Under the pieces are notes generated by a model. The model was not told where the DNA came from and searched no databases. It saw only the letters and a list, made by a program, of their open reading frames with translations. Below are positions 29,044 through 38,966 of a stretch of 41,528 nt of DNA, one piece after another. This DNA comes from Bacteroidales bacterium (GTDB lineage Bacteria > Bacteroidota > Bacteroidia > Bacteroidales > UBA932), in the NCBI GenBank assembly GCA_017398335.1, contig JAFQGK010000068.1, positions 1 through 41,528 on the forward strand. The letters are read 5' to 3'. The translations under genes were made by a program, and so were the position numbers. Numbering within the stretch: the first letter of the stretch is position 1; each line of letters starts with the position of its first letter.

Positions 29044-29075
29044 TTTGTATTTTTTGCAATGTTTTCATACATTTG
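29044..29075 (+). promoter_or_regulatory. Promoter of the acyltransferase gene
   Basis: TTTG at 29044-29047, a 20-base spacer and TACATTTG at 29068-29075. It supports the ATG at 29101 as the start of the next gene. Confidence 0.72.
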
Positions 29076-29100
29076 CATTAATGTACATAAAAATAGACCT

Positions 29101-30273
29101 ATGGTAGACTTATCTGAATTCGAGAGTATCAGCCCTTATACGGATGCTGAAGCTGCGGAGGCGTTGAGCAAGTTGGCTGAATATCCTCTCCTTTCCCATG
29201 TGTCTCAACATTTCTTTCCTGAAGAATCGCCTGATTTTCTCAAGAATCTGCTGAAAAGCATCAAGACAATCGATGATTTTCAGATTCTTGTGATGCAGAA
29301 GTTCGTGCGTTGGGTTCTGGAACATACAGCAAAGAATTTTTCATACGACGGCGTTGCCAATATAGATCCGAACAAGAAGTTTCTTGCTCTTTCAAATCAT
29401 AGGGATATCATGCTGGATCCTGCTATCACTCAGCTTGTTCTGTATACCAACGGTATTCCGATGACTGAGATAGCCGTAGGTGATAATCTGATTACCAGCA
29501 AGACCATCGAGTATCTTATCCGTTCGAACAGAATGATCAAGGTGGTAAGGGGTATCAGCGCGAGGGAGCTTTATCTTTCGTCACAGCTTCTGTCCAAATA
29601 TATCCGTCTGAACATCACTGAGCAGCGTAGTTCGATCTGGCTTGCACAGCGCCAGGGAAGGACCAAGAATGGTTATGATGTCACGGAGCAGGGTCTTCTC
29701 AAGATGCTGGATATGAGCGGTACTTCGGATTTTCAGCAGAATTTCGAGGAGCTGAACATTATTCCGATGAGTATTTCTTACGAGTATGAGCCTTGCGATA
29801 TCCTGAAGGCTCGTGAGCTTGTGATTTCGCGTAAGAAGAAGTATGTGAAGGCAGAGGGTGAGGATCTTAACAGCATTATGGTGGGTATCATGCAGCAGAA
29901 GGGAAATATCCATCTGAATATCGGTACTCCTCTTACTTCTGATGAGATTGCTGCGGCTGCAAAATGCGATAAGAATGACAGGTATCAGCTTATACGCCAT
30001 GCTGTCGACAGGCGAGTTATCGAGGGATACCATCTTTGGAAGAACAATTATGTGGCTTATGATATCCTGAATCATTCGTTCAAGTATTCGGATATGTATT
30101 CGATTTCGGATGTCGAGTCGTTCGTCATTTATATGGAGAAGCAGCTTGATACTATCGAGAAGGAAATCAATAGGGAAGACCTTAGACGCATTTTCCTCCA
30201 GATTTATGCTAATCCTGTGGTTACCAAGGAATTACTAGCCAAAGAAAAGGCCACTGGAGCGATTCTTCTGTAA
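29101..30273 (+). CDS. Acyltransferase (PlsC/glycerolipid family)
   Basis: A 390-residue predicted phospholipid/glycerol acyltransferase of a Bacteroidota-specific group. The catalytic stretch is FLALSNHRDIMLDPA, where His is five residues from the second Asp (H-x5-D) instead of the usual H-x4-D; the family form HRDIxLD is recognised. WLAQRQGRTKNGYD is the likely substrate-binding block (usual EGTRS region), and NIIPMSISYEYEPCD matches the next conserved block. There is no clear transmembrane helix, so it probably binds the inner face of the membrane. The ATG at 29101 follows a good promoter. Acceptor lipid unknown. Confidence 0.8.
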   Translation: MVDLSEFESISPYTDAEAAEALSKLAEYPLLSHVSQHFFPEESPDFLKNLLKSIKTIDDFQILVMQKFVRWVLEHTAKNFSYDGVANIDPNKKFLALSNHRDIMLDPAITQLVLYTNGIPMTEIAVGDNLITSKTIEYLIRSNRMIKVVRGISARELYLSSQLLSKYIRLNITEQRSSIWLAQRQGRTKNGYDVTEQGLLKMLDMSGTSDFQQNFEELNIIPMSISYEYEPCDILKARELVISRKKKYVKAEGEDLNSIMVGIMQQKGNIHLNIGTPLTSDEIAAAAKCDKNDRYQLIRHAVDRRVIEGYHLWKNNYVAYDILNHSFKYSDMYSISDVESFVIYMEKQLDTIEKEINREDLRRIFLQIYANPVVTKELLAKEKATGAILL

Positions 30274-30800: not shown

Positions 30801-31712
30801 TCAGTCGTTCTTGAGGTTGATGTCGAGTTTAGGGTATGGGAACTGGATGTTGTTCTTCGGTAGTTCGTTGTAGATTTTTTCCAACATATCGAAGTTCACG
30901 TTCCAGTAGTCCTGTGATTTTACCCATACTCTTATTGTGAATATAATGCTGCTGTCTGCCAGGTTGCTAAGTGCAATGAAAGGGGCAGCAGGGGCTCCTG
31001 TTTCAACTGTCAGTACGCGTGGGTCTGCATTGATTATCTCAGACAGAATTGATTTTGCATGCTCTGTTGATGTGCCGTATTCCACACCGACAGACAGGTC
31101 GAGTCGTCTTAATGTGTTATGGGAGTAATTGTTGATTGTTCCGTTTGAGAGGGCTCCGTTAGGTATTACAATCATTCTGTTGTCGACTGTCGTGAGCTTT
31201 GTGCTGGTGATGGTCACTTCCGATACTGTGCCTTCATATCCTTGCGCCTGGATGTAGTCACCGGCCTTGAAAGGACGGAAGATGAGGATCATGATGCCGC
31301 CTGCAAAATTCTGTACGGTGCCGTTCAAAGCCATACCTATGGCCATGCCACCACCTGCAAGTAATGCTGCAAGTGAGGTGGTGTCAATGCCTAGTGTTCC
31401 GACAATTATGATTATAAGGAGGATTGTCAGAGCGATGCTTATGATGCTCTGTACGAATGATGCTATGGCCGGATCTGTCTTCTTTTTTTCGAAGATTCTG
31501 TGAAGCATCTTCTTGATCTTGCGGATGAGCCATATGCCTATAAAATACAGGGCAAGAGCGGCCAGAACCTTCAGCCCGAACGATACTATCTTATCAAGCA
31601 TATCGCCGATAAGGACATCTGCAGGGGTGTTCTTTACTGTTTCAATGACTTCTGTGACTTTGGCCTCTACGTCCAAAGTGTCAACTGGAGTGGTCTGAAG
31701 CAAGTTTATCAT
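30801..31712 (-). CDS. Small-conductance mechanosensitive channel (MscS family)
   Basis: A 303-residue inner-membrane channel that opens under membrane tension to release osmolytes. There are three hydrophobic helices; the pore helix is the Gly/Ala-rich LAALLAGGGMAIGMALNGTVQNFAGG, followed by IMILIFRPFKAGDYI leading into the beta domain, and a C-terminal alpha/beta domain. The mature N-terminus lacks a large periplasmic domain, as in the short MscS type. It is the last gene of the minus-strand Hdr/cysteate synthase cluster, 15 bases after that gene's stop, so co-transcription is likely. Confidence 0.92.
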   Translation of the reverse strand: MINLLQTTPVDTLDVEAKVTEVIETVKNTPADVLIGDMLDKIVSFGLKVLAALALYFIGIWLIRKIKKMLHRIFEKKKTDPAIASFVQSIISIALTILLIIIIVGTLGIDTTSLAALLAGGGMAIGMALNGTVQNFAGGIMILIFRPFKAGDYIQAQGYEGTVSEVTITSTKLTTVDNRMIVIPNGALSNGTINNYSHNTLRRLDLSVGVEYGTSTEHAKSILSEIINADPRVLTVETGAPAAPFIALSNLADSSIIFTIRVWVKSQDYWNVNFDMLEKIYNELPKNNIQFPYPKLDINLKND

Positions 31713-31727
31713 AATTTCAAATGCTTA

Positions 31728-33017
31728 TTAACGGAAAAGATTCTCAACTTTTGCTGCAACTTCGTCAGCCGGTGTTTCCGGATCCATTACAAGATGCGGC
31801 TCAGCATAAATGATGCCTCCCTCTGCCTTTGCTCTCTCTTCACCACCTCCGGTGATATTGAGCATGATCATTTCATCCTTGCCGACAGTGCCGTTGCTTA
31901 CGGCCTGTGCAAGTGATGCGACTGCTACTGCAGCTGCATTGTGGATATCAATTCCTTCGAGCTTCAGGAATTTATCCTGCCATTTATGGAGCTCTTCGTT
32001 TGTGACCTTAAACATCTCACCACCAGCATCTTCCATTGCTTCAAAGAGTCCGCCTGCAAGTGAATAAGGCGGCTTTCTGTTGGAAAGAACCTTTGCGTCG
32101 ATGATGGCTGCTGCCTGACGTGCTTCCTCCGGAGACATAGGCACGAGCTCTCTCGAGTGCTTGCACCAGGAATCATACATAATGGTGAAAGGGTCGTTCT
32201 GAGAAGGGTAGAGGCGCATCTTGTGCGATCCGTACCTTCCGTCTTCGATGAGCCTGAGATTGTTTTCCCATGCTGCGATTGTGCCTGTACCGCTTCCGAT
32301 GGCCTGGAAGTATGCATCAGGGATTCTGCCGGTCACTTCAACGGCTGAGAGAAGGGTCGTGCCCATTCCGTCACGTCTTGCTACGTTCTTTGCTCCTCCT
32401 TCGGCCATGAAACGAGGTGATGAGCATACTTTGTCGGAGAGTGCGATTGCATCGAAATAATCGGATCCCTTCGGAGATGCTATGATCTTAACGCAGTCAT
32501 TGAGAGGTTTCTTGAACCACAGTGCGCTGATATTGTCCTCCGGAATGGATATTACGAGTGGAATGTTGTTGTCTGAGCATACTTTGGCAAAGGCGCGGGC
32601 TGTGTTTCCTGCAGATGCCACAACGAGGATTCTGTCGTTGTCTTCAGGAAGTCTTGCGCATACGGAATATGCTTCAGTTTCCTTGAATGAGCATGTCTCC
32701 ATCTTTGCACCGATTTCCGGGAAGTAGCCGGAGAATGTGATGTACAGGTTGTTCAGTCCGAGTTCTTCTGCAAGGGCCTTGCTCTTGTAGGTGATCGGAG
32801 GGCATGAACCGTTCAATGTCCTTCTGATCGGAAGCCAGTCTGCGAATCTGTAGAATCCATCAAGTTCTGTACGAGGGTTGTACTGTTTCTTTTCGTATTC
32901 GGCTCTGACGAGGCTTGGACAATTGCATTTTGGGTCGGCAAGGCTCCAGCCTTCGTCTTCAAATCTGTGACCTGTACTGCAGCAGATAAGCGTGTACTTT
33001 GTTGGAGTGAATGTCAT
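31728..33017 (-). CDS. Cysteate synthase (threonine synthase-like PLP enzyme)
   Basis: A 429-residue PLP enzyme of the threonine synthase fold; the best match in memory is cysteate synthase (TIGR03844 type), which makes L-cysteate from O-phosphoserine and sulfite. Features: WLPI and PPITYKSKALAEELGLNN, YITFSGYFPEIGAKMETCSF as in archaeal cysteate synthase, PLP Lys112 in SFKETEA, and SAGNT (135-139). Cysteate is the head-group precursor of sulfonolipids in many Bacteroidales. Start at 33017 puts MTFTPTKYTLICC first; the longer frame overlaps the upstream gene. It follows the HdrD-like gene by 13 bases. A true threonine synthase is unlikely but not excluded. Confidence 0.82.
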   Translation of the reverse strand: MTFTPTKYTLICCSTGHRFEDEGWSLADPKCNCPSLVRAEYEKKQYNPRTELDGFYRFADWLPIRRTLNGSCPPITYKSKALAEELGLNNLYITFSGYFPEIGAKMETCSFKETEAYSVCARLPEDNDRILVVASAGNTARAFAKVCSDNNIPLVISIPEDNISALWFKKPLNDCVKIIASPKGSDYFDAIALSDKVCSSPRFMAEGGAKNVARRDGMGTTLLSAVEVTGRIPDAYFQAIGSGTGTIAAWENNLRLIEDGRYGSHKMRLYPSQNDPFTIMYDSWCKHSRELVPMSPEEARQAAAIIDAKVLSNRKPPYSLAGGLFEAMEDAGGEMFKVTNEELHKWQDKFLKLEGIDIHNAAAVAVASLAQAVSNGTVGKDEMIMLNITGGGEERAKAEGGIIYAEPHLVMDPETPADEVAAKVENLFR

Positions 33018-33030
33018 AATAGTATAGATT

Positions 33031-34884
33031 TTAGTTAATTTCTGTGTTTGAGTCGATAAGTTCGGCAATGTCTCTTACCGGAGTCTGCGAGTACCTGTTG
33101 AATGTGCTTCTACAGAGCGGGCAGGCAGTGATGACTTCGTCTGGAGATGCTATCGTGAGGTTCTTCAATGCATTCTCAGTCAGGGCTTTCCGCTTATCGA
33201 AGCTTAGTGTCAGACTACCGAGGCTGCCACCGCAGCATATGCTTTCCTTACCGTTTTTCTCTGCCTCGACGAGTTCGCCTGCCGATGAAACGACGTTTCT
33301 TGGCTGGTCATATATGCCGCAGCCGCGTCCAAGCTCGCACGGATCATGGTAAACATATGATTTTTCTGACTTCCGTACCTTCAGCCTGCCTTCCTTTATC
33401 AATCTGTCGATATATTCAGTATGGTGAAGGATTTCTATTCCTTCGAGGGCATATTTTTCCTTGAATATCTTATAACAGATAGGGCAGCTCAGAAGAAGTA
33501 TGTCTGCTCCGGATTCCTTGATGATCTCAGTGTTCTTCGCAACAAGCTCCATTGCCTGGTCGATTCTTCCTGCCATAAGCATCGGCCTTCCGCAGCAGAT
33601 ACCGCCGTCCTTGTCCATTATTCCGTAGTTGACCCCTGCTTTTTTCAGTAGGGAAGTCATGGATTTCATAATCGTCGGAGTCAGTGAGGTCATACAGCCA
33701 GCAAAATATAAAACCTTTTGATTATGAATGTCTGAAACAAAGTCGTTCTCGGTTGTAACAAAATTGTTAAGCTGGTTTTTCAGGCTATTTGTGTCGATAT
33801 TCGAGTAGTCCTGACTGATGTTGTATTTTCTGATCGACCTCTGTGCTATGCGGAGTCTGTCACCCTGTACGCCGACCGGACATACGGCTGTACATTTGCC
33901 GCAGAGAAGACATTTGTCGCTGATTTCTTCTATTCTTCTTTCGTTGTAGCGCTTGATCTGGCGGTTGAGATAGACGGTCGTGTCTCTGGTGTTGGCTTTC
34001 ACTGCACTCATCGGGCATGCATCGATGCAGACGCCGCAGCTCGGGCATGAATATACCTGAAGCCTTGATATGCCTTTGCGCGAATGTCTGATAGGTATTC
34101 CGGCATTGCGCATAGGGATGAGAAGTATTTCTGCCGGAATGTGCATGTATCTGCTGAACGGCAGGACGCACATGAATACGCACAGGGCCATTGAATATGC
34201 CCACCATGTCGGAAGCATGTTCATCTGGTCACTGAAGAAGAAGTGGAGAACATCATTAAGCGACTTTGTCAGGAAGGATCCGCCGCTGATGTCGGCTGTA
34301 AAGCCTTCAGCGAGGAGTCGCAATGGGAAAATGCTCCACAATGCGTACAGGCCGATGGTGTCGGTAAGGCTTGGTCTTGTCGTACGCCTCATTCCGAACA
34401 GTCTGGAGCGTATTCTCTTGGTGATGGCGAGAATGATGCCGCTCAGAATCACAAGAAGGAAAAAGTCCATCAGGAAGAAGAAGAATGATCCCTTCATCGT
34501 GTTCTCGGTCACGGCCACAAAATAGCGGAAGAATATAGGATACCATACCTGATGAATGCGCTCGGGTGTGTATAGGAATACTTCTATATGTCCTATGACA
34601 ATGATCATGAACCATCCGAATGCTATGCTTGAGTGCATGTAGCCCAGGAGTTTGTTTCTTTTCCATAGCTTTACGTGGAAAAGGCAGTCGCAGAACCAGT
34701 CCTTGATGTTCTTTGCCATGATCTTCGGATTGAGCAGGGAAAGGAAGAACTTCTTTCTGTCCTCTGCACTGAGCTCCATGATGACCCTGATGGCTCCTAT
34801 TATGCACCAGGACAGCACGAAAATCATTCCGATCATGAAAGGAATGATAAAGTTGCTGTATCCTGACAGATATATCTCTCTCAT
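33031..34884 (-). CDS. Membrane HdrE/HdrD-like iron-sulfur protein
   Basis: A 617-residue fusion. Residues 1-260 form a NarI/HdrE-like membrane domain of about five helices with His84, His99, His214 and His248 as possible haem ligands. Two [4Fe-4S] sites follow: C280/C283/C286/C290 and C325/C328/C331/C335. Then come two complete CCG domains for non-cubane clusters: C397, C430-C431, C467, C470 and C516, C550-C551, C588, C591. This is the HdrDE, or HdrB2-like, catalytic part that would exchange electrons with menaquinone. It overlaps the upstream gene by ATGA. Similar fusions occur in Qmo/Dsr-related complexes; the substrate is unknown. Confidence 0.88.
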   Translation of the reverse strand: MREIYLSGYSNFIIPFMIGMIFVLSWCIIGAIRVIMELSAEDRKKFFLSLLNPKIMAKNIKDWFCDCLFHVKLWKRNKLLGYMHSSIAFGWFMIIVIGHIEVFLYTPERIHQVWYPIFFRYFVAVTENTMKGSFFFFLMDFFLLVILSGIILAITKRIRSRLFGMRRTTRPSLTDTIGLYALWSIFPLRLLAEGFTADISGGSFLTKSLNDVLHFFFSDQMNMLPTWWAYSMALCVFMCVLPFSRYMHIPAEILLIPMRNAGIPIRHSRKGISRLQVYSCPSCGVCIDACPMSAVKANTRDTTVYLNRQIKRYNERRIEEISDKCLLCGKCTAVCPVGVQGDRLRIAQRSIRKYNISQDYSNIDTNSLKNQLNNFVTTENDFVSDIHNQKVLYFAGCMTSLTPTIMKSMTSLLKKAGVNYGIMDKDGGICCGRPMLMAGRIDQAMELVAKNTEIIKESGADILLLSCPICYKIFKEKYALEGIEILHHTEYIDRLIKEGRLKVRKSEKSYVYHDPCELGRGCGIYDQPRNVVSSAGELVEAEKNGKESICCGGSLGSLTLSFDKRKALTENALKNLTIASPDEVITACPLCRSTFNRYSQTPVRDIAELIDSNTEIN

Positions 34885-35219
34885 CGTCCTGCCTCCTTTT
34901 CATATATGCGGCATATCGAAAGAATGATATGTCTTGTGTTGATGCCTCTCGGACAGACCATAGTGCATTTCCCGCAGAGCATACAGTTCGACATAAGCCT
35001 GAATGCTTCCTCTTCCTTGCCTCTCTGGAGGTTCAGGAGCACTTTCCTGACGCTCATTCCTGAGAATGTTGCCGCCGGACACGTCGCACTGCACGAACCA
35101 CAGGCCATACAGCGCATGGCATCGGGCTCGATCCTGCATAGCTCTTCGAACCGTGTCCTGTCCACTTTGTCCAGATTTATTGCTGAACTGGGTGATATTC
35201 TGAATCCGAAAATGCTCAT
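34881..35219 (-). CDS. HdrC-like 4Fe-4S dicluster protein
   Basis: A 112-residue small electron carrier with two CxxCxxCxxxCP motifs, C37/C40/C43/C47 and C79/C82/C85/C89, as in HdrC of heterodisulfide reductases. No signal peptide, so cytoplasmic or attached to the membrane subunit. It overlaps both neighbours by ATGA (HdrA-like upstream, membrane fusion downstream), pointing to a fixed complex. In the sHdr gene order this is the place of HdrC2. Confidence 0.9.
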   Translation of the reverse strand: MSIFGFRISPSSAINLDKVDRTRFEELCRIEPDAMRCMACGSCSATCPAATFSGMSVRKVLLNLQRGKEEEAFRLMSNCMLCGKCTMVCPRGINTRHIILSICRIYEKEAGR

Positions 35220-36235
35220 TGTCCGGAAATTATCTGTGAATGTATGTCAAGTACTGCAGATCTTGCCTCTGCAAGTGTTTCAGGGACTGTTTTAGGGCCT
35301 GTGCAGGCGCCTGCGTAGAATATTCCTTTCTTAGTGGAAGAGGTGATGTGGAAGACATTGTCGTGGCTTTTGAGGAAGCCGTCGGAGTCCACCTGCAGTG
35401 CCATCATTCCAGCCATCTTGTGGGTGTCAGGGTTACATACCATGCCTGACATAAGCACAAGGAGGTCAAGAGTCACTTTGATTGGCTTGCCTGCGAGGGT
35501 GTCTTCAGCCTTTACAATCACTTTACCTTCAATGTTTTCGCTTACTTCCGACACTCGTCCGCGTATGAAGTGGATGCCGTAGTCTTTCTGGGCCTTGATG
35601 TAGAAGTCTTCGAATTTCTTTCCGAAGAGTCTGAGGTCCATATAGAAGCAGTAGATCTGTGCGTCAGGGAATTTCTCCTTGAGTTCGATGGCCTGCTTGA
35701 TTGCGGTGATGCAGCATACTTTCGAGCACTGGCTGTTTCTGGCCTTCTCGTCACGTGAGCCTACACAGTGGACGAATCCGATGGCCTGCATCGATGAATT
35801 TTCGATTCTTTCGTCTTTGCCAGTGTTGAACCAATGCTCCAAGTCTCCGTTGGTAATTACTTGATTGTAAATACCATATCCGTACTCTTCCTTTTTCTCG
35901 GCTTCAAAGAGTCTGAATCCTGTTGTACAAAGGATATACTTCGTCATTATTGATATGCCGTTCGAGAGCTTGATATTATAGCTGTCCTGAAGACGGTTGA
36001 TGAACGATATTTCCGTATTAAGGAATATGTTCGAGTCCTTGCTGGATGCAATCAGTTCATCGACTATGTCTTTAGCCGGGGTCATATCAGGGAAAAGCTT
36101 GTGCCAGTTGGCAACCTTTCCGCCGAGGTGATCCTCCTTTTCAATTATTATAGGGGAGTAACCGAGCTTGAGAAGCTGTGATGCCGCTTCCAGACCGGCG
36201 ATTCCACCTCCGATTATTACAACAATCTCCTTCAT
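35216..36235 (-). CDS. Short HdrA-like FAD protein
   Basis: A 339-residue FAD-dependent subunit. The dinucleotide fold is IIGGGIAGLEAA (GGGIAG 9-14) and a second one ends ILCTTGF. An HdrA-type cysteine set follows: HCVGSRDE (156-163, C157), C170, C174-C175 in NSQCSKVCC, then the family-typical YMDLRLFGKKFEDFY. The C-terminal FAD-binding part is GIFYAGACTGPKTVPETLAEARSA. It lacks the ferredoxin domains of full-size methanogen HdrA (~650 residues), matching sHdrA length. The ATG at 36235, two bases after the HdrB-like stop, is used rather than the one at 36247, which lies inside that gene. Confidence 0.88.
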   Translation of the reverse strand: MKEIVVIIGGGIAGLEAASQLLKLGYSPIIIEKEDHLGGKVANWHKLFPDMTPAKDIVDELIASSKDSNIFLNTEISFINRLQDSYNIKLSNGISIMTKYILCTTGFRLFEAEKKEEYGYGIYNQVITNGDLEHWFNTGKDERIENSSMQAIGFVHCVGSRDEKARNSQCSKVCCITAIKQAIELKEKFPDAQIYCFYMDLRLFGKKFEDFYIKAQKDYGIHFIRGRVSEVSENIEGKVIVKAEDTLAGKPIKVTLDLLVLMSGMVCNPDTHKMAGMMALQVDSDGFLKSHDNVFHITSSTKKGIFYAGACTGPKTVPETLAEARSAVLDIHSQIISGQ

Positions 36236-36237
36236 AA

Positions 36238-37308
36238 TTAAAAGCATTTGATGCCCGCAGGCAGTTCAGGACGCATTATATCCTTCTTGTTCAGGCCTTT
36301 ATATTTGTCCTCCGGACTGTATTCGATGCCGATTTTGTCGAGTAGGGGCTCAACTGCCACCTGGTGGAGCTGGAGTCCGAGGTCCCATGGGTCATAACCC
36401 AGTACAAGGCCGGCTACTTCTTCATATGTGAATACAGGGATTCCGAAGCCGTTCTGTCCGTAGGTCTTTCCTTCCATTTCAGCGATGACATACTGCCAGC
36501 GGTCAAGGAAGTATGGACATCCTGGGCAGTTGGTTATGATCATATCCGGCTTGTAGGGCTCCATAGACTCGAATTTCTTATGTGTATTCGAGAGGGAGTA
36601 GCCACGGTTAGCTTTGACATGATATTGCCTGAAACCGTATCCGCAGCAATGTCTGCGCTCAGGATAATCGATCACTTCGCCTCCCCAGGCGTCAATCATT
36701 CCTGCCAGGACGTACGGATATTCGGCGCCGCCGACTCCTTTTGACGGGAACATCTTGGCGTAATGGCAGCCGATGTGCTCAACGACTCTGAGAGGTTCTC
36801 CTGTCTTTTTGTTTACGAGTCTGAACGCGGCCTTTTCGGCGATTTCGTTCCTGTATTTGTAGATCAGGTCGCTTGAGTGTGCCAGATATTTAGGCTTGTT
36901 GAATTCCTTGCGGCATGCTTTCCAGAGCATTTCGCGGATTCTGGTTTCCAGTTCAGGGAATTCATTCCATGTTTCAAGGATTTCTGTGTAGTTGCCGAAG
37001 GATGTTATGCATGAAGCTACGTAGTTTTCATAGCCGGCTTCTGTCATAAGCGCAAACTGCCTTGCCACAATAGTCATGGCTGTCTCCTGAGGAATGGTGT
37101 CGCAGTGGTACGCTATGCCTCCACAGGTCGTATGATGCTCATTTTCATAGAAATCCTTTCCCAGAACATCTTTGCATATTTCAAGGAACATACGTTCCGA
37201 TCCTGGGAAGAAGTTCTGCCTGATGCAGCTTCTTACATAGTACCAATGATCATCAGGAATCTCTTTCTGATAATCACTCCAGATCTTCTGTTTGCCTTGG
37301 TAAATCAT
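36238..37308 (-). CDS. HdrB-like CCG-domain protein
   Basis: A 356-residue HdrB-type subunit. The C-terminal CCG domain is complete: C181, C221-C222, C261, C264 (GCHYAK, HCCGYG, NCPGCP), suited to a non-cubane [4Fe-4S] cluster. The N-terminal one is degraded: C28, then TCGG (C62, one Cys in place of Cys-Cys), and C100 with Ser in place of the second Cys of CxxC. It is one of the two HdrB-like subunits of the cluster and starts 3 bases after the HdrC-like gene. The loss could leave only one active cluster. Confidence 0.87.
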   Translation of the reverse strand: MIYQGKQKIWSDYQKEIPDDHWYYVRSCIRQNFFPGSERMFLEICKDVLGKDFYENEHHTTCGGIAYHCDTIPQETAMTIVARQFALMTEAGYENYVASCITSFGNYTEILETWNEFPELETRIREMLWKACRKEFNKPKYLAHSSDLIYKYRNEIAEKAAFRLVNKKTGEPLRVVEHIGCHYAKMFPSKGVGGAEYPYVLAGMIDAWGGEVIDYPERRHCCGYGFRQYHVKANRGYSLSNTHKKFESMEPYKPDMIITNCPGCPYFLDRWQYVIAEMEGKTYGQNGFGIPVFTYEEVAGLVLGYDPWDLGLQLHQVAVEPLLDKIGIEYSPEDKYKGLNKKDIMRPELPAGIKCF

Positions 37309-37311
37309 CTC

Positions 37312-38010
37312 TTATTCGTTGTTGAAATGTCCTTCCGAGCAATGCTCGAATGTATGTCTGTAGTATTCGTCGATGCTCATTCCCATTTCCTCTGCTTTTG
37401 CTTTGGAATATTTTTCTATTGTCTCCATCCTCTCGGTTCCTCCGGTCACGTCGAATATGCTCTTGAGCTCATCGAGGGATTCCTGAGGTATGTTTCTAAG
37501 TATACCGGGGCCGTTGCCTTTGTAGTTTGCACCCAGTCGTGCGTAGCTGTCCTCGTAATGCTCTGTGTGCCATTTCCATACAGGACCGGACTCTACGTGG
37601 TCTTCCCAACTGAAAGTGTCCGGATAGATACAGTATCCGTAGTTGAGTATGTTACCGGTCATTATCCTGGTAAGAGGGAAGAGCTGACGGCCTTTTTCGG
37701 ATTCGACGAAGTAGCCGAGCTTTGCAGATAGGTTTCTAAGGGCCATTATGACCAGTCCGGGGCCGTTCTTTCGAGGGCATCTCGTGAGACAGGACATACA
37801 TTCGCCGCAATACCATATCATATCGCTTTTGAGGAGCTTCTCTATCTCCTCATCATCGCCACGCTGGACGGTGTCGACTATCATACGAGGGTCGTATCTG
37901 TAGAATTCTGCAGCTGGGCATATGGCCGTACAGGTGCCGCAGTTGATGCAGGCTTTGAGACCTTCCTTTATTCGGTAGTCTTCCTGCAGCATATCATATA
38001 ACTTTCCCAT
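37312..38010 (-). CDS. HdrC-like 4Fe-4S protein with C-terminal extension
   Basis: A 232-residue protein with two ferredoxin-type cluster motifs, C21/C24/C27/C31 and C68/C71/C74/C78, then about 150 residues of helical and aromatic-rich sequence (ESGPVWKWHTEHYEDSYARLG and beyond) with no obvious family. The N-terminal half equals HdrC, in the position of HdrC1 of the sHdr order. It is probably cytoplasmic. It starts 2 bases after the antiporter gene stop, so the whole cluster is translated in one run. Confidence 0.87.
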   Translation of the reverse strand: MGKLYDMLQEDYRIKEGLKACINCGTCTAICPAAEFYRYDPRMIVDTVQRGDDEEIEKLLKSDMIWYCGECMSCLTRCPRKNGPGLVIMALRNLSAKLGYFVESEKGRQLFPLTRIMTGNILNYGYCIYPDTFSWEDHVESGPVWKWHTEHYEDSYARLGANYKGNGPGILRNIPQESLDELKSIFDVTGGTERMETIEKYSKAKAEEMGMSIDEYYRHTFEHCSEGHFNNE

Positions 38011-38012
38011 AA

Positions 38013-38966
38013 TCAGATATTTGATATAAGGTAGTACATATAAGCAACCTCCATCAGGACCAGAATCAGACCTTCAATACGGTCGAGACTTTTCTTGCGG
38101 AAGCACCATGCGCTCAGCAGGATAAAGAGCGAGCAGGCCAGTACCATTCCAAGGTCGATGATGGTCATACCATTGAATGAAAGTGGTGAGATGAGTGCAG
38201 AACCGCCGAGAATAAGCAGTATGTTCGATATGTTGGAACCGAGGATGTTGCCGAGAGCAAGCTGGCCTCTTCCCTTGAAGGCAGCTACAACGCAGGTGGC
38301 AAGTTCTGGCATGGACGTTCCTGCAGCCATGACTGTGATTGCAATGAATTTGTCTGATACTCCGAAGAGTTTTGCTATTTCAGTTGCCGAATTGACGAAG
38401 AGCCTTCCTCCGAAGATCAGTCCTGCAAGTCCACCGGCTATCATCAATACTGAAACCACGATAGAATACTGCTTGATCGGTGATTCATCGTCAGATGCTG
38501 AATCCGAGCGGAACGATGACCACAGGTACCATACGAATATTCCGAGCAGGATGATTCCGTCGAGTCGGCTGAGCTGGTCTGTACCTTTTCCGAATATTGT
38601 GAAATTGAGACCCAGGAAAATCAGTAGGGCTGTAACGAAGATATTTAGCGGAATATCTTTCCTGATGTTGCTTCTGGTGATTACGAGGGGGGAGATCAGG
38701 GCTGTCACGCCAAGGATCATTGCGGTGTTGAATATGTTCGATCCTACAATGTTTCCAATGGCCATATCTGCTTTACCTTGGATTGAGGAAAGGAAGCTCA
38801 CTACCATTTCCGGAGCGGACGTTCCGATGCCTACGATGGTTACACCGATGATGAACTCGCTGAGTCCGAATCTTTTAGCTATGCTGGACGCTCCGTCTAC
38901 GAGGTAGTTGGCGCCAAAAAGTATCAGCAGCAGTCCTGCTGCCAGTATAAGTAGCTGTATTGTCAT
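38013..38966 (-). CDS. Calcium/sodium antiporter (CaCA family)
   Basis: A 317-residue inner-membrane antiporter of the CaCA family (YrbG-like), about ten hydrophobic helices in two inverted halves. The two alpha-repeats are VGIGTSAPEMVVS and AAGTSMPELATC, each with the Glu that binds the cation; NIVGSNIFN and NILGSNISN follow them. It exchanges Na+ or K+ for Ca2+. It is the first gene of the minus-strand Hdr/cysteate synthase/mscS cluster and is divergent from the NfeD gene. Ion specificity is inferred. Confidence 0.92.
   Translation of the reverse strand: MTIQLLILAAGLLLILFGANYLVDGASSIAKRFGLSEFIIGVTIVGIGTSAPEMVVSFLSSIQGKADMAIGNIVGSNIFNTAMILGVTALISPLVITRSNIRKDIPLNIFVTALLIFLGLNFTIFGKGTDQLSRLDGIILLGIFVWYLWSSFRSDSASDDESPIKQYSIVVSVLMIAGGLAGLIFGGRLFVNSATEIAKLFGVSDKFIAITVMAAGTSMPELATCVVAAFKGRGQLALGNILGSNISNILLILGGSALISPLSFNGMTIIDLGMVLACSLFILLSAWCFRKKSLDRIEGLILVLMEVAYMYYLISNI

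Follow-up and report, generated by a model that had tools for sequence, protein, structure and literature searches.

Where would an anaerobic bacterium that does not reduce sulfate obtain the sulfite for cysteate and for the sulfonolipids built on it? The question is raised by a gene cluster in a 41,528-nucleotide stretch of Bacteroidales DNA (contig JAFQGK010000068.1 of assembly GCA_017398335.1, hereafter the window), in which four genes resembling those of heterodisulfide reductase (Hdr) and a fifth for an iron-sulfur membrane protein run into a gene for archaeal-type cysteate synthase (CS), an enzyme family that makes cysteate from phosphoserine and sulfite. The reading we favour, and regard as moderately probable, is that these five genes are an anaerobic, menaquinone-coupled source of sulfite for sulfonolipids, and a biosynthetic relative of the sHdr system of sulfur oxidisers. 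The six genes are contiguous on one strand with spacings of +3, -10, -4, -4 and +13 nt, and their protein families were assigned by Pfam and NCBIfam as follows.

38010-37312, minus strand: C1, HdrC-like (sHdrC1-like), 232 aa, with eight cysteines and two [4Fe-4S] motifs
37308-36238, minus strand: B, HdrB (sHdrB1-like), 356 aa, CCG family, starting 3 nt after C1
36247-35216, minus strand: A, HdrA-like (sHdrA-like) single-domain FAD protein, 343 aa, overlapping B by 10 nt
35219-34881, minus strand: C2, HdrC-like, 112 aa, with two [4Fe-4S] motifs, overlapping A by 4 nt
34884-33031, minus strand: EtfD/EMO-type membrane protein, 617 aa, with 4Fe-4S motifs and two CCG sites, overlapping C2 by 4 nt
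33017 (ATG)-31728, minus strand: archaeal-type CS, 429 aa, beginning 13 nt past the stop codon of the membrane-protein gene

This order, with CS after a 13-nt gap, is as an earlier reading made from the sequence alone had described it. Iron-sulfur cysteines are present in C1, B, C2 and the membrane protein, and the CS scored 462.8 bits against TIGR03844 (cut-off 324.9) and 587 bits against PDB 9k3c, an entry named 'Cysteate synthase'. Promoter-like sites (14, versus 12.2 in shuffled sequence) and terminator-like sites (11 versus 8.4) were about as frequent as in shuffles. The five-gene order is not a product of chance: of 40 Bacteroidales loci retrieved with HdrB as the anchor, 32 keep it; two were rearranged (L040 and L042) and six were partial, with C1-B or B-A only (L038, L043, L051, L054, L055 and L075).

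Comparison with proteins of known structure placed A close to the sHdr type. Residues 9-334 of A align with residues 4-335 of the 349-residue PDB 6tjr at 204 bits, an entry whose own name is that of a generic flavoprotein and which we take to be the sHdrA of Hyphomicrobium; this nearly end-to-end match confirmed the short, sHdr-like HdrA that had been proposed from the sequence. Methanogen HdrA, which carries additional domains, aligned only piecewise, with comparable scores of 203 bits or lower; no ferredoxin domain was found in A, for which Pfam gives FAD/NAD-type domains only, and C161, C174, C178 and C179 of A are invariant in 17 aligned rows. A plasmid of Picosynechococcus PCC 7003 (L163:7068-12808, NZ_CP016476.1) carries C1-B1-A-C2-B2-FAD genes, an order suggesting that it is an sHdr cluster; a lipoyl-type Pfam match was found in none of the six following genes scanned. 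C1, A and B of the window are 48% (over 200 aa), 44% and 39% identical to their Picosynechococcus counterparts, and likeness is weak for C2 (34% over 68 aa) and between the fifth protein and B2. The best other HdrB matches, from 247 genomes drawn from the phylum with few of this order, were about 30% identical. In B the C-terminal CCG site is complete (C181, C221, C222, C261, C264) and the N-terminal site retains only C28, C62 and C100, its CC pair and CxxC each one cysteine short; Picosynechococcus B1 has the same degenerate N-terminal pattern. Judged by these alignments, C1, B and A are an sHdr-type core.

The fifth protein had been read as HdrE/HdrD, an assignment that did not hold, as it is EtfD-like both by fold and by best PDB sequence match. 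Its AlphaFold2 model (mean pLDDT 89.1, 25 sequences) found as best PDB fold the Mycobacterium smegmatis EtfD 9ojn (E 1.2e-20, TM-score 0.71 by query length, root-mean-square deviation 7.0, 17% identity). The protein joins an N-terminal membrane domain, two [4Fe-4S] motifs and two complete CCG sites in one chain, and each of 25 aligned rows keeps both CCG sites, both 4Fe-4S motifs and the histidines H70, H84 and H248. The same membrane domain, two [4Fe-4S] motifs and two CCG sites make up EtfD, which we take to be the protein called EMO (ETF:menaquinone oxidoreductase; the gene is written EMO below). On the strength of the model, the window protein is probably a menaquinone reductase that delivers electrons to menaquinone. 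It differs from EtfD/EMO in that its partner genes are sHdr-type; no EtfAB was recognised among the identified operon genes, the genomes themselves not being searched for it.

If CS had been the main partner of these genes, the two should travel together. Among 247 genomes drawn from the order Bacteroidales, HdrB (match at E <=1e-20, partial loci included) was found in 79 and TIGR03844 over its cut-off in 66, with both in 28. TIGR03844 was thus absent from 51 of the 79 HdrB genomes, and its frequency there (28/79 versus 38/168 in the others; odds ratio 1.88, p 0.045, not tree-corrected) led us to reject CS as the main partner. The cluster is common in the absence of that enzyme, which is the outcome that the sequence-only reading had named as refuting its proposal. 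The cysteate acyltransferase SulA (E <1e-100; 217 genomes matched at 1e-60, of which the 42 weaker were dropped) was found in 175 of the 247 genomes, and in 74 of the 79 HdrB genomes versus 101 of the 168 others (odds ratio 9.8, p 1e-8, not tree-corrected). Of the co-occurrence suggested by the sequence-only reading, the part concerning the acyltransferase therefore stood and that concerning CS was weak: the steadier partner of the Hdr cluster is sulfonolipid synthesis, marked by SulA, and not TIGR03844. The genome of the window itself has a SulA (708 bits), on contig C64 rather than on the window contig, that is 74% identical to the SulA of L040.

Gene neighbourhoods showed that the association can be physical. 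An HdrB-profile scan of one genome per species in 84,980 species returned, among its best 80 loci, mostly uncultured Bacteroidales, several of them named Candidatus Cryptobacteroides. In 12 of these 80 the order SulA-SDR-C1-B-A-C2-EMO-CS is co-directional with gaps of mostly a few bases, and in 11 of the 12 a gene of the VOC family with two domains directly precedes SulA; L151 reads VOC-SulA-CSL-SDR-C1-B-A-C2-EMO, where CSL is a threonine/cysteate synthase-like gene that we infer to be a second kind of cysteate synthase. B and EMO were placed in 76 loci of this set, 72 of which have 1.5 kb of downstream room; in 45 of the 76, CS directly follows EMO, as it also does in L113, where EMO is split. 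Other families carry reshuffled forms: SulA-CSL-C1-B-A-C2-EMO-SDR-VOC in L039, SulA-CSL-SDR-VOC-C1-C2-EMO-B-A in L040 and L042, SulA-CSL-C1-B-A-C2-EMO in L041 and, in a region fetched because its coordinates matched, C1-B-A-C2-EMO-SulA in L162. The 'SulA' genes of L116 and L118 are only 30% identical and were left out of the counts. Among the 40 loci fetched around HdrB, a pyridoxal-phosphate-type (PLP) acyltransferase gene was found in four; CSL proved on closer look to be present in all four (in three it was already in the same similarity group) and a short-chain dehydrogenase (SDR) in three. The linked SulA of L040 scored 579 bits against 7u7h, taken here as the Alistipes finegoldii SulA structure of PMC9304779, and 556 bits against 28eh ('Cysteate-C-fatty acyltransferase').

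In an HdrB tree of 53 rows the sulfonolipid-linked loci stand in two places apart, with well-supported branches forcing at least four changes of label; the linked loci of other families form an HdrB clade apart from that of the window, and gene orders differ between the clades. Linkage is nevertheless the exception: Hdr genes lie within 10 kb of CS or SulA in at least eight of the 79 HdrB genomes, with a CS link in the window genome, G008 and G224 and a SulA link in G041, G081, G185, G108 and G141 among the matches listed. Where linkage is present, it is operon-like and reshuffled. The VOC-SulA-reductase-C1-B-A-C2-EMO-CS operons and their reshuffled forms strongly support the earlier suggestion of an anaerobic Bacteroidales module serving cysteate and sulfonolipid synthesis.

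The two-domain VOC/glyoxalase-superfamily protein (about 357 aa; L080:6157-7233) shares a locus with SulA in both Hdr-type and CysH-type loci, the latter described below, and was also seen in L039, L040, L042, L160, L176, L179, L180, L184, L185 and L190. Its PDB matches were marginal only, and it may be an undescribed sulfonolipid gene.

What the module could contribute to sulfonolipid synthesis was approached through loci that lack it. In all 11 loci picked by close coordinates from 18 fetched regions, CysH lies near SulA and/or CSL and the fetched sequence shows no Hdr gene; two of these loci were confirmed to have CysD and CysN as well, and one to have CysQ. L182 has CysD and CysN between CysH and CSL, and L184 has CysD, CysN, a DASS transporter and CysQ there. 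Sulfate-to-sulfite enzymes therefore occupy in these loci the place that Hdr genes hold in others. Conversely, no CysH match was found in the 86 Hdr loci from the scan and order sets (L037-L076, L077-L162) except in L075, which has C1-B only. Across L175-L185, CysH was observed between or beside SulA and CSL, L184 being an apparent sulfate-to-sulfite-to-lipid gene cluster.

Sulfur-gene content was then compared in 20 of the 24 genomes positive for Hdr and SulA and negative for CysH (TIGR02055 at E 1e-15, with G111 at 6.6e-17 dropped before counting); G012, G071, G148 and G242 were left out. None of the 20 had an NIR_SIR siroheme sulfite reductase match, and none had CysD over the cut-off, weak pieces occurring in two. 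Although they carry sulfonolipid genes, these genomes seem to lack the means of turning sulfate into sulfite. With sulfate activation and sulfite reductase unmatched, the simplest source left inside the cell is the oxidation of reduced sulfur, the alternative being uptake of sulfite.

Among 63 well-assembled SulA genomes (>=95% complete, <=100 contigs), both modules occur in 23, Hdr alone in 17, CysH alone in 21 and neither in 2 (Fisher p 0.005); without G063, which has both modules and a fragmentary HdrB, the 62 genomes divide into 22, 17, 21 and 2 (p 0.004), and all 175 SulA genomes into 50 with both, 24 with Hdr only, 87 with CysH only and 14 with neither (p 0.005). HdrB or CysH is thus present in 61 of 63 well-assembled genomes (60 of 62 without G063), HdrB is present in 17 of the 19 that are CysH-negative, and in 13 of 14 families with a CysH-negative well-assembled genome at least one such genome carries HdrB. 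This complementarity found no support in a test by independent pairs on a tree of 58 SulA rows standing in for the species tree (8 pairs, p 1 by sign test, with low power); G106, G195, G204, G206 and G214, for which no SulA coordinates were listed, were out of the tree, and G000 was added. It was rejected as proof and is only descriptive, because the tree-based pairs show no relation.

Taken with the subunit identities, the favoured reading would run as follows. By homology, sulfur bound at the sulfide or sulfane level would be oxidised to sulfite by the C1-B1-A core, and the fold of the fifth protein suggests that electrons would pass by way of C2 and the EtfD-type subunit to menaquinone. Cysteate synthase would join the sulfite to phosphoserine, giving cysteate, which SulA (encoded on another contig in the window genome) would condense with acyl-ACP to start sulfonolipid synthesis. 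The sulfite/sulfide couple lies at about -116 mV and menaquinone at about -74 mV, so that menaquinone could accept such electrons and NAD could not, which would fit a built-in quinone reductase. Such a route would be an oxygen-free source of sulfite for anaerobes without sulfate reduction. We infer the direction, substrate, carrier and coupling of the complex; that the module makes sulfite is suggested by its sequence kinship, and the support on hand consists of gene content, the operons in relatives, the sHdr-type core, the EtfD-type fold and the absences in 20 genomes. SulA itself makes 3-ketocapnine in Alistipes, according to PMC9304779.

The known relatives of the cluster share some features with it and differ in others. 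In PMC11582611, type I and type II sHdr are described as sharing sHdrA, sHdrC1 and the proposed catalytic subunit sHdrB1, and as differing in having C2/B2 or a fused B3. The window cluster resembles type I (hdrC1-B1-A-hyp-C2-B2 with LbpA, in Hyphomicrobium and others) in C1, B1, the single-domain A and the order of the first subunits; unlike type I it has no hyp gene, an EtfD-type membrane protein in place of B2, no LbpA in the operon and a tie to lipid synthesis rather than to lithotrophy. With type II (fused shdrB3) it has A, C1 and B1 in common (type II as outlined in PMC11582611), whereas here C2 is separate, the CCG portion forms one chain with a membrane domain and no LbpA is linked. The cluster is thus an sHdr core with a third kind of outlet, besides the C2/B2 of type I and the B3 of type II. 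Strict membership of either type was rejected, because no LbpA is linked and B2 is replaced by the EtfD-type protein. Methanogen HdrABC is homologous in B, C and part of A; unlike it and the electron-bifurcating forms, the window A lacks ferredoxin domains and the N-terminal CCG site of B is degenerate, and no Flx, Mvh or Fdh genes were recognised in the operon. To the sulfonolipid pathway (archaeal-type cysteate synthase, SulA/CapB, KCR/CapC) the window is joined by its cysteate synthase, through the match to 9k3c. The fuller proposal is of a third sHdr architecture, LbpA-independent and membrane-bound, that would oxidise cellular sulfur to sulfite anaerobically with menaquinone as acceptor, for sulfonolipids and not for energy, beside or in place of CysND/CysH; we give it an even chance.

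Several observations weigh against the favoured reading. One concerns LbpA, which PMC6067878 and PMC10332631 call essential to, and inevitably associated with, sHdr. The operons examined have no spare gene for it, and the suggested search for an LbpA-like protein found none linked: the only lipoyl-type match in the window genome (86% complete) is marginal (21.3 bits, or 22.2 counting its neighbours, for a cut-off of 22.2), and G018, which is Hdr-positive and 99% complete, has no lipoyl/GcvH-type match. A good GcvH-type match lies elsewhere in 18 of the 20 genomes positive for Hdr and SulA and negative for CysH, a match that does not distinguish LbpA from GcvH. The sulfur-transfer proteins DsrE and TusA were each found in only two of these 20, G195 and G224 in both cases. 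The result of the independent pairs belongs here too, as do the 22 of 62 well-assembled genomes (23 of 63 with G063) that carry both modules, and G003 and G201, in which SulA and TIGR03844 were found but no Hdr and no CysH. Linkage to sulfonolipid genes is missing from most Hdr loci, many contigs being short; six of the 40 loci hold C1-B or B-A only, including those of G001 and G218, which were counted as Hdr-only as HdrB alone was scored; and genes named by eye as response-regulator-like and as ABC-transporter ATPase-like each recur in 5 of the 41 loci, a frequency no lower than that of SulA.

Some of these observations are accommodated by readings in which the module does not supply sulfite. 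It may belong to sulfonolipid synthesis in another capacity, transferring electrons between menaquinone and thiols or disulfides or providing redox for another step, with sulfite taken from the gut. The same sulfonolipid operons fit this explanation, as does the lack of a linked LbpA, and G201 and G003 mean that another sulfite source may exist. It is harder to reconcile with a core of sHdr type, with the SDR-type gene that the known ketone reduction already has in the same operons, and with those other sulfonolipid loci in which CysH, twice with confirmed CysD and CysN, provides a route yielding sulfite. We consider it rather unlikely. A general Hdr-menaquinone electron-transfer complex for catabolism, with a secondary or chance sulfonolipid neighbourhood, would account for the recurrence of other neighbour genes, for Hdr and CysH occurring together in 22 of 62 genomes and for the 71 of 79 HdrB genomes with no 10-kb link among the matches listed, short contigs included. 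Against it stand the tightly spaced, co-directional operons, found in two HdrB clades that differ in gene order, and the presence of SulA in 74 of 79 HdrB genomes; we judge it unlikely. The reductive direction, in which the module would detoxify sulfite and adjoin CS since both consume it, gains something from the lack of a siroheme sulfite reductase match in all 20 genomes, so that another sulfite sink might be wanted. Menaquinol would be a poor donor for sulfite reduction at the potentials given above, this direction offers no account of the operons that include SulA and its reductase, and the Hyphomicrobium sHdr relative works oxidatively and releases sulfite, as PMC12423496 has it; this explanation is very improbable.

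A second type of locus, seen in L055 (6328-11479), L075 and L038, has a C1-B pair without A and an HdrB 65-67% identical to that of the window, and is a paralogous sulfur module. In L055 the pair is followed by methionine gamma-lyase-like, CoA-disulfide reductase-like and Mrp/NUBPL-type genes; a DUF134-type gene is nearby in all three, and L075 has a gene with a PAPS-reductase domain. The response-regulator-like gene lies upstream of C1 in L047, L048, L050 and L066 and 12 genes away in L054; a membrane-protein gene stands beside it in four loci, and these are possible regulators. The binding protein beside one of the ABC-transporter ATPase-like genes is PBP_like_2. Two genes flank the cluster in the window, each with a doubtful role in the module.

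38013-38966, minus strand: Na+/Ca2+ exchanger family gene, 2 nt upstream of C1, near the cluster in 10 of the best 80 scan loci
30801-31712, minus strand: MscS-type mechanosensitive channel gene, 15 nt downstream of CS, near the cluster in 27 of the best 80 scan loci

On the opposite strand to the operon, a 404-aa protein (29059-30273, plus strand) resembles acyltransferases only weakly, its 20.9 bits falling short of the cut-off of 23, and a CCG search of the window genome also gave a 418-aa frame elsewhere.

In the literature covered, which lay outside most subscription papers and all bioRxiv preprints, no paper was found that joins sulfonolipid with heterodisulfide, or that has 'cysteate synthase', 'sulfonolipid' and 'sulfite' together; cysteate synthase occurred with heterodisulfide reductase only in papers that, by title, concern methanogens, Methanoperedens-like archaea or coenzyme M. 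A review in which the word sulfite does not occur notes that the archaeal-type cysteate synthase is the one used by gut Alistipes and Odoribacter (PMC10191378), and the sulfonolipid papers examined by term do not mention sulfite, nor 'heterodisulfide' or 'Hdr' where these were looked for. A survey of sHdr had 406 annotated, 334 of them assigned to metagenome-assembled genomes of Proteobacteria (PMC12345210). New here is the combination of an sHdr-type core, an EtfD-type outlet and a biosynthetic setting.

Sulfonolipids are immune-active lipids of gut Bacteroidota, and an anaerobic source of sulfite for their cysteate is a point that the sulfonolipid papers examined leave unaddressed. If the favoured reading is true, an enzyme of lithotrophs would here have been put to a new, anabolic use, forming sulfite with neither oxygen nor sulfate required. 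Such an sHdr would be informative on the function of sHdr in general, as a version apparently without LbpA and with a quinone reductase built in.

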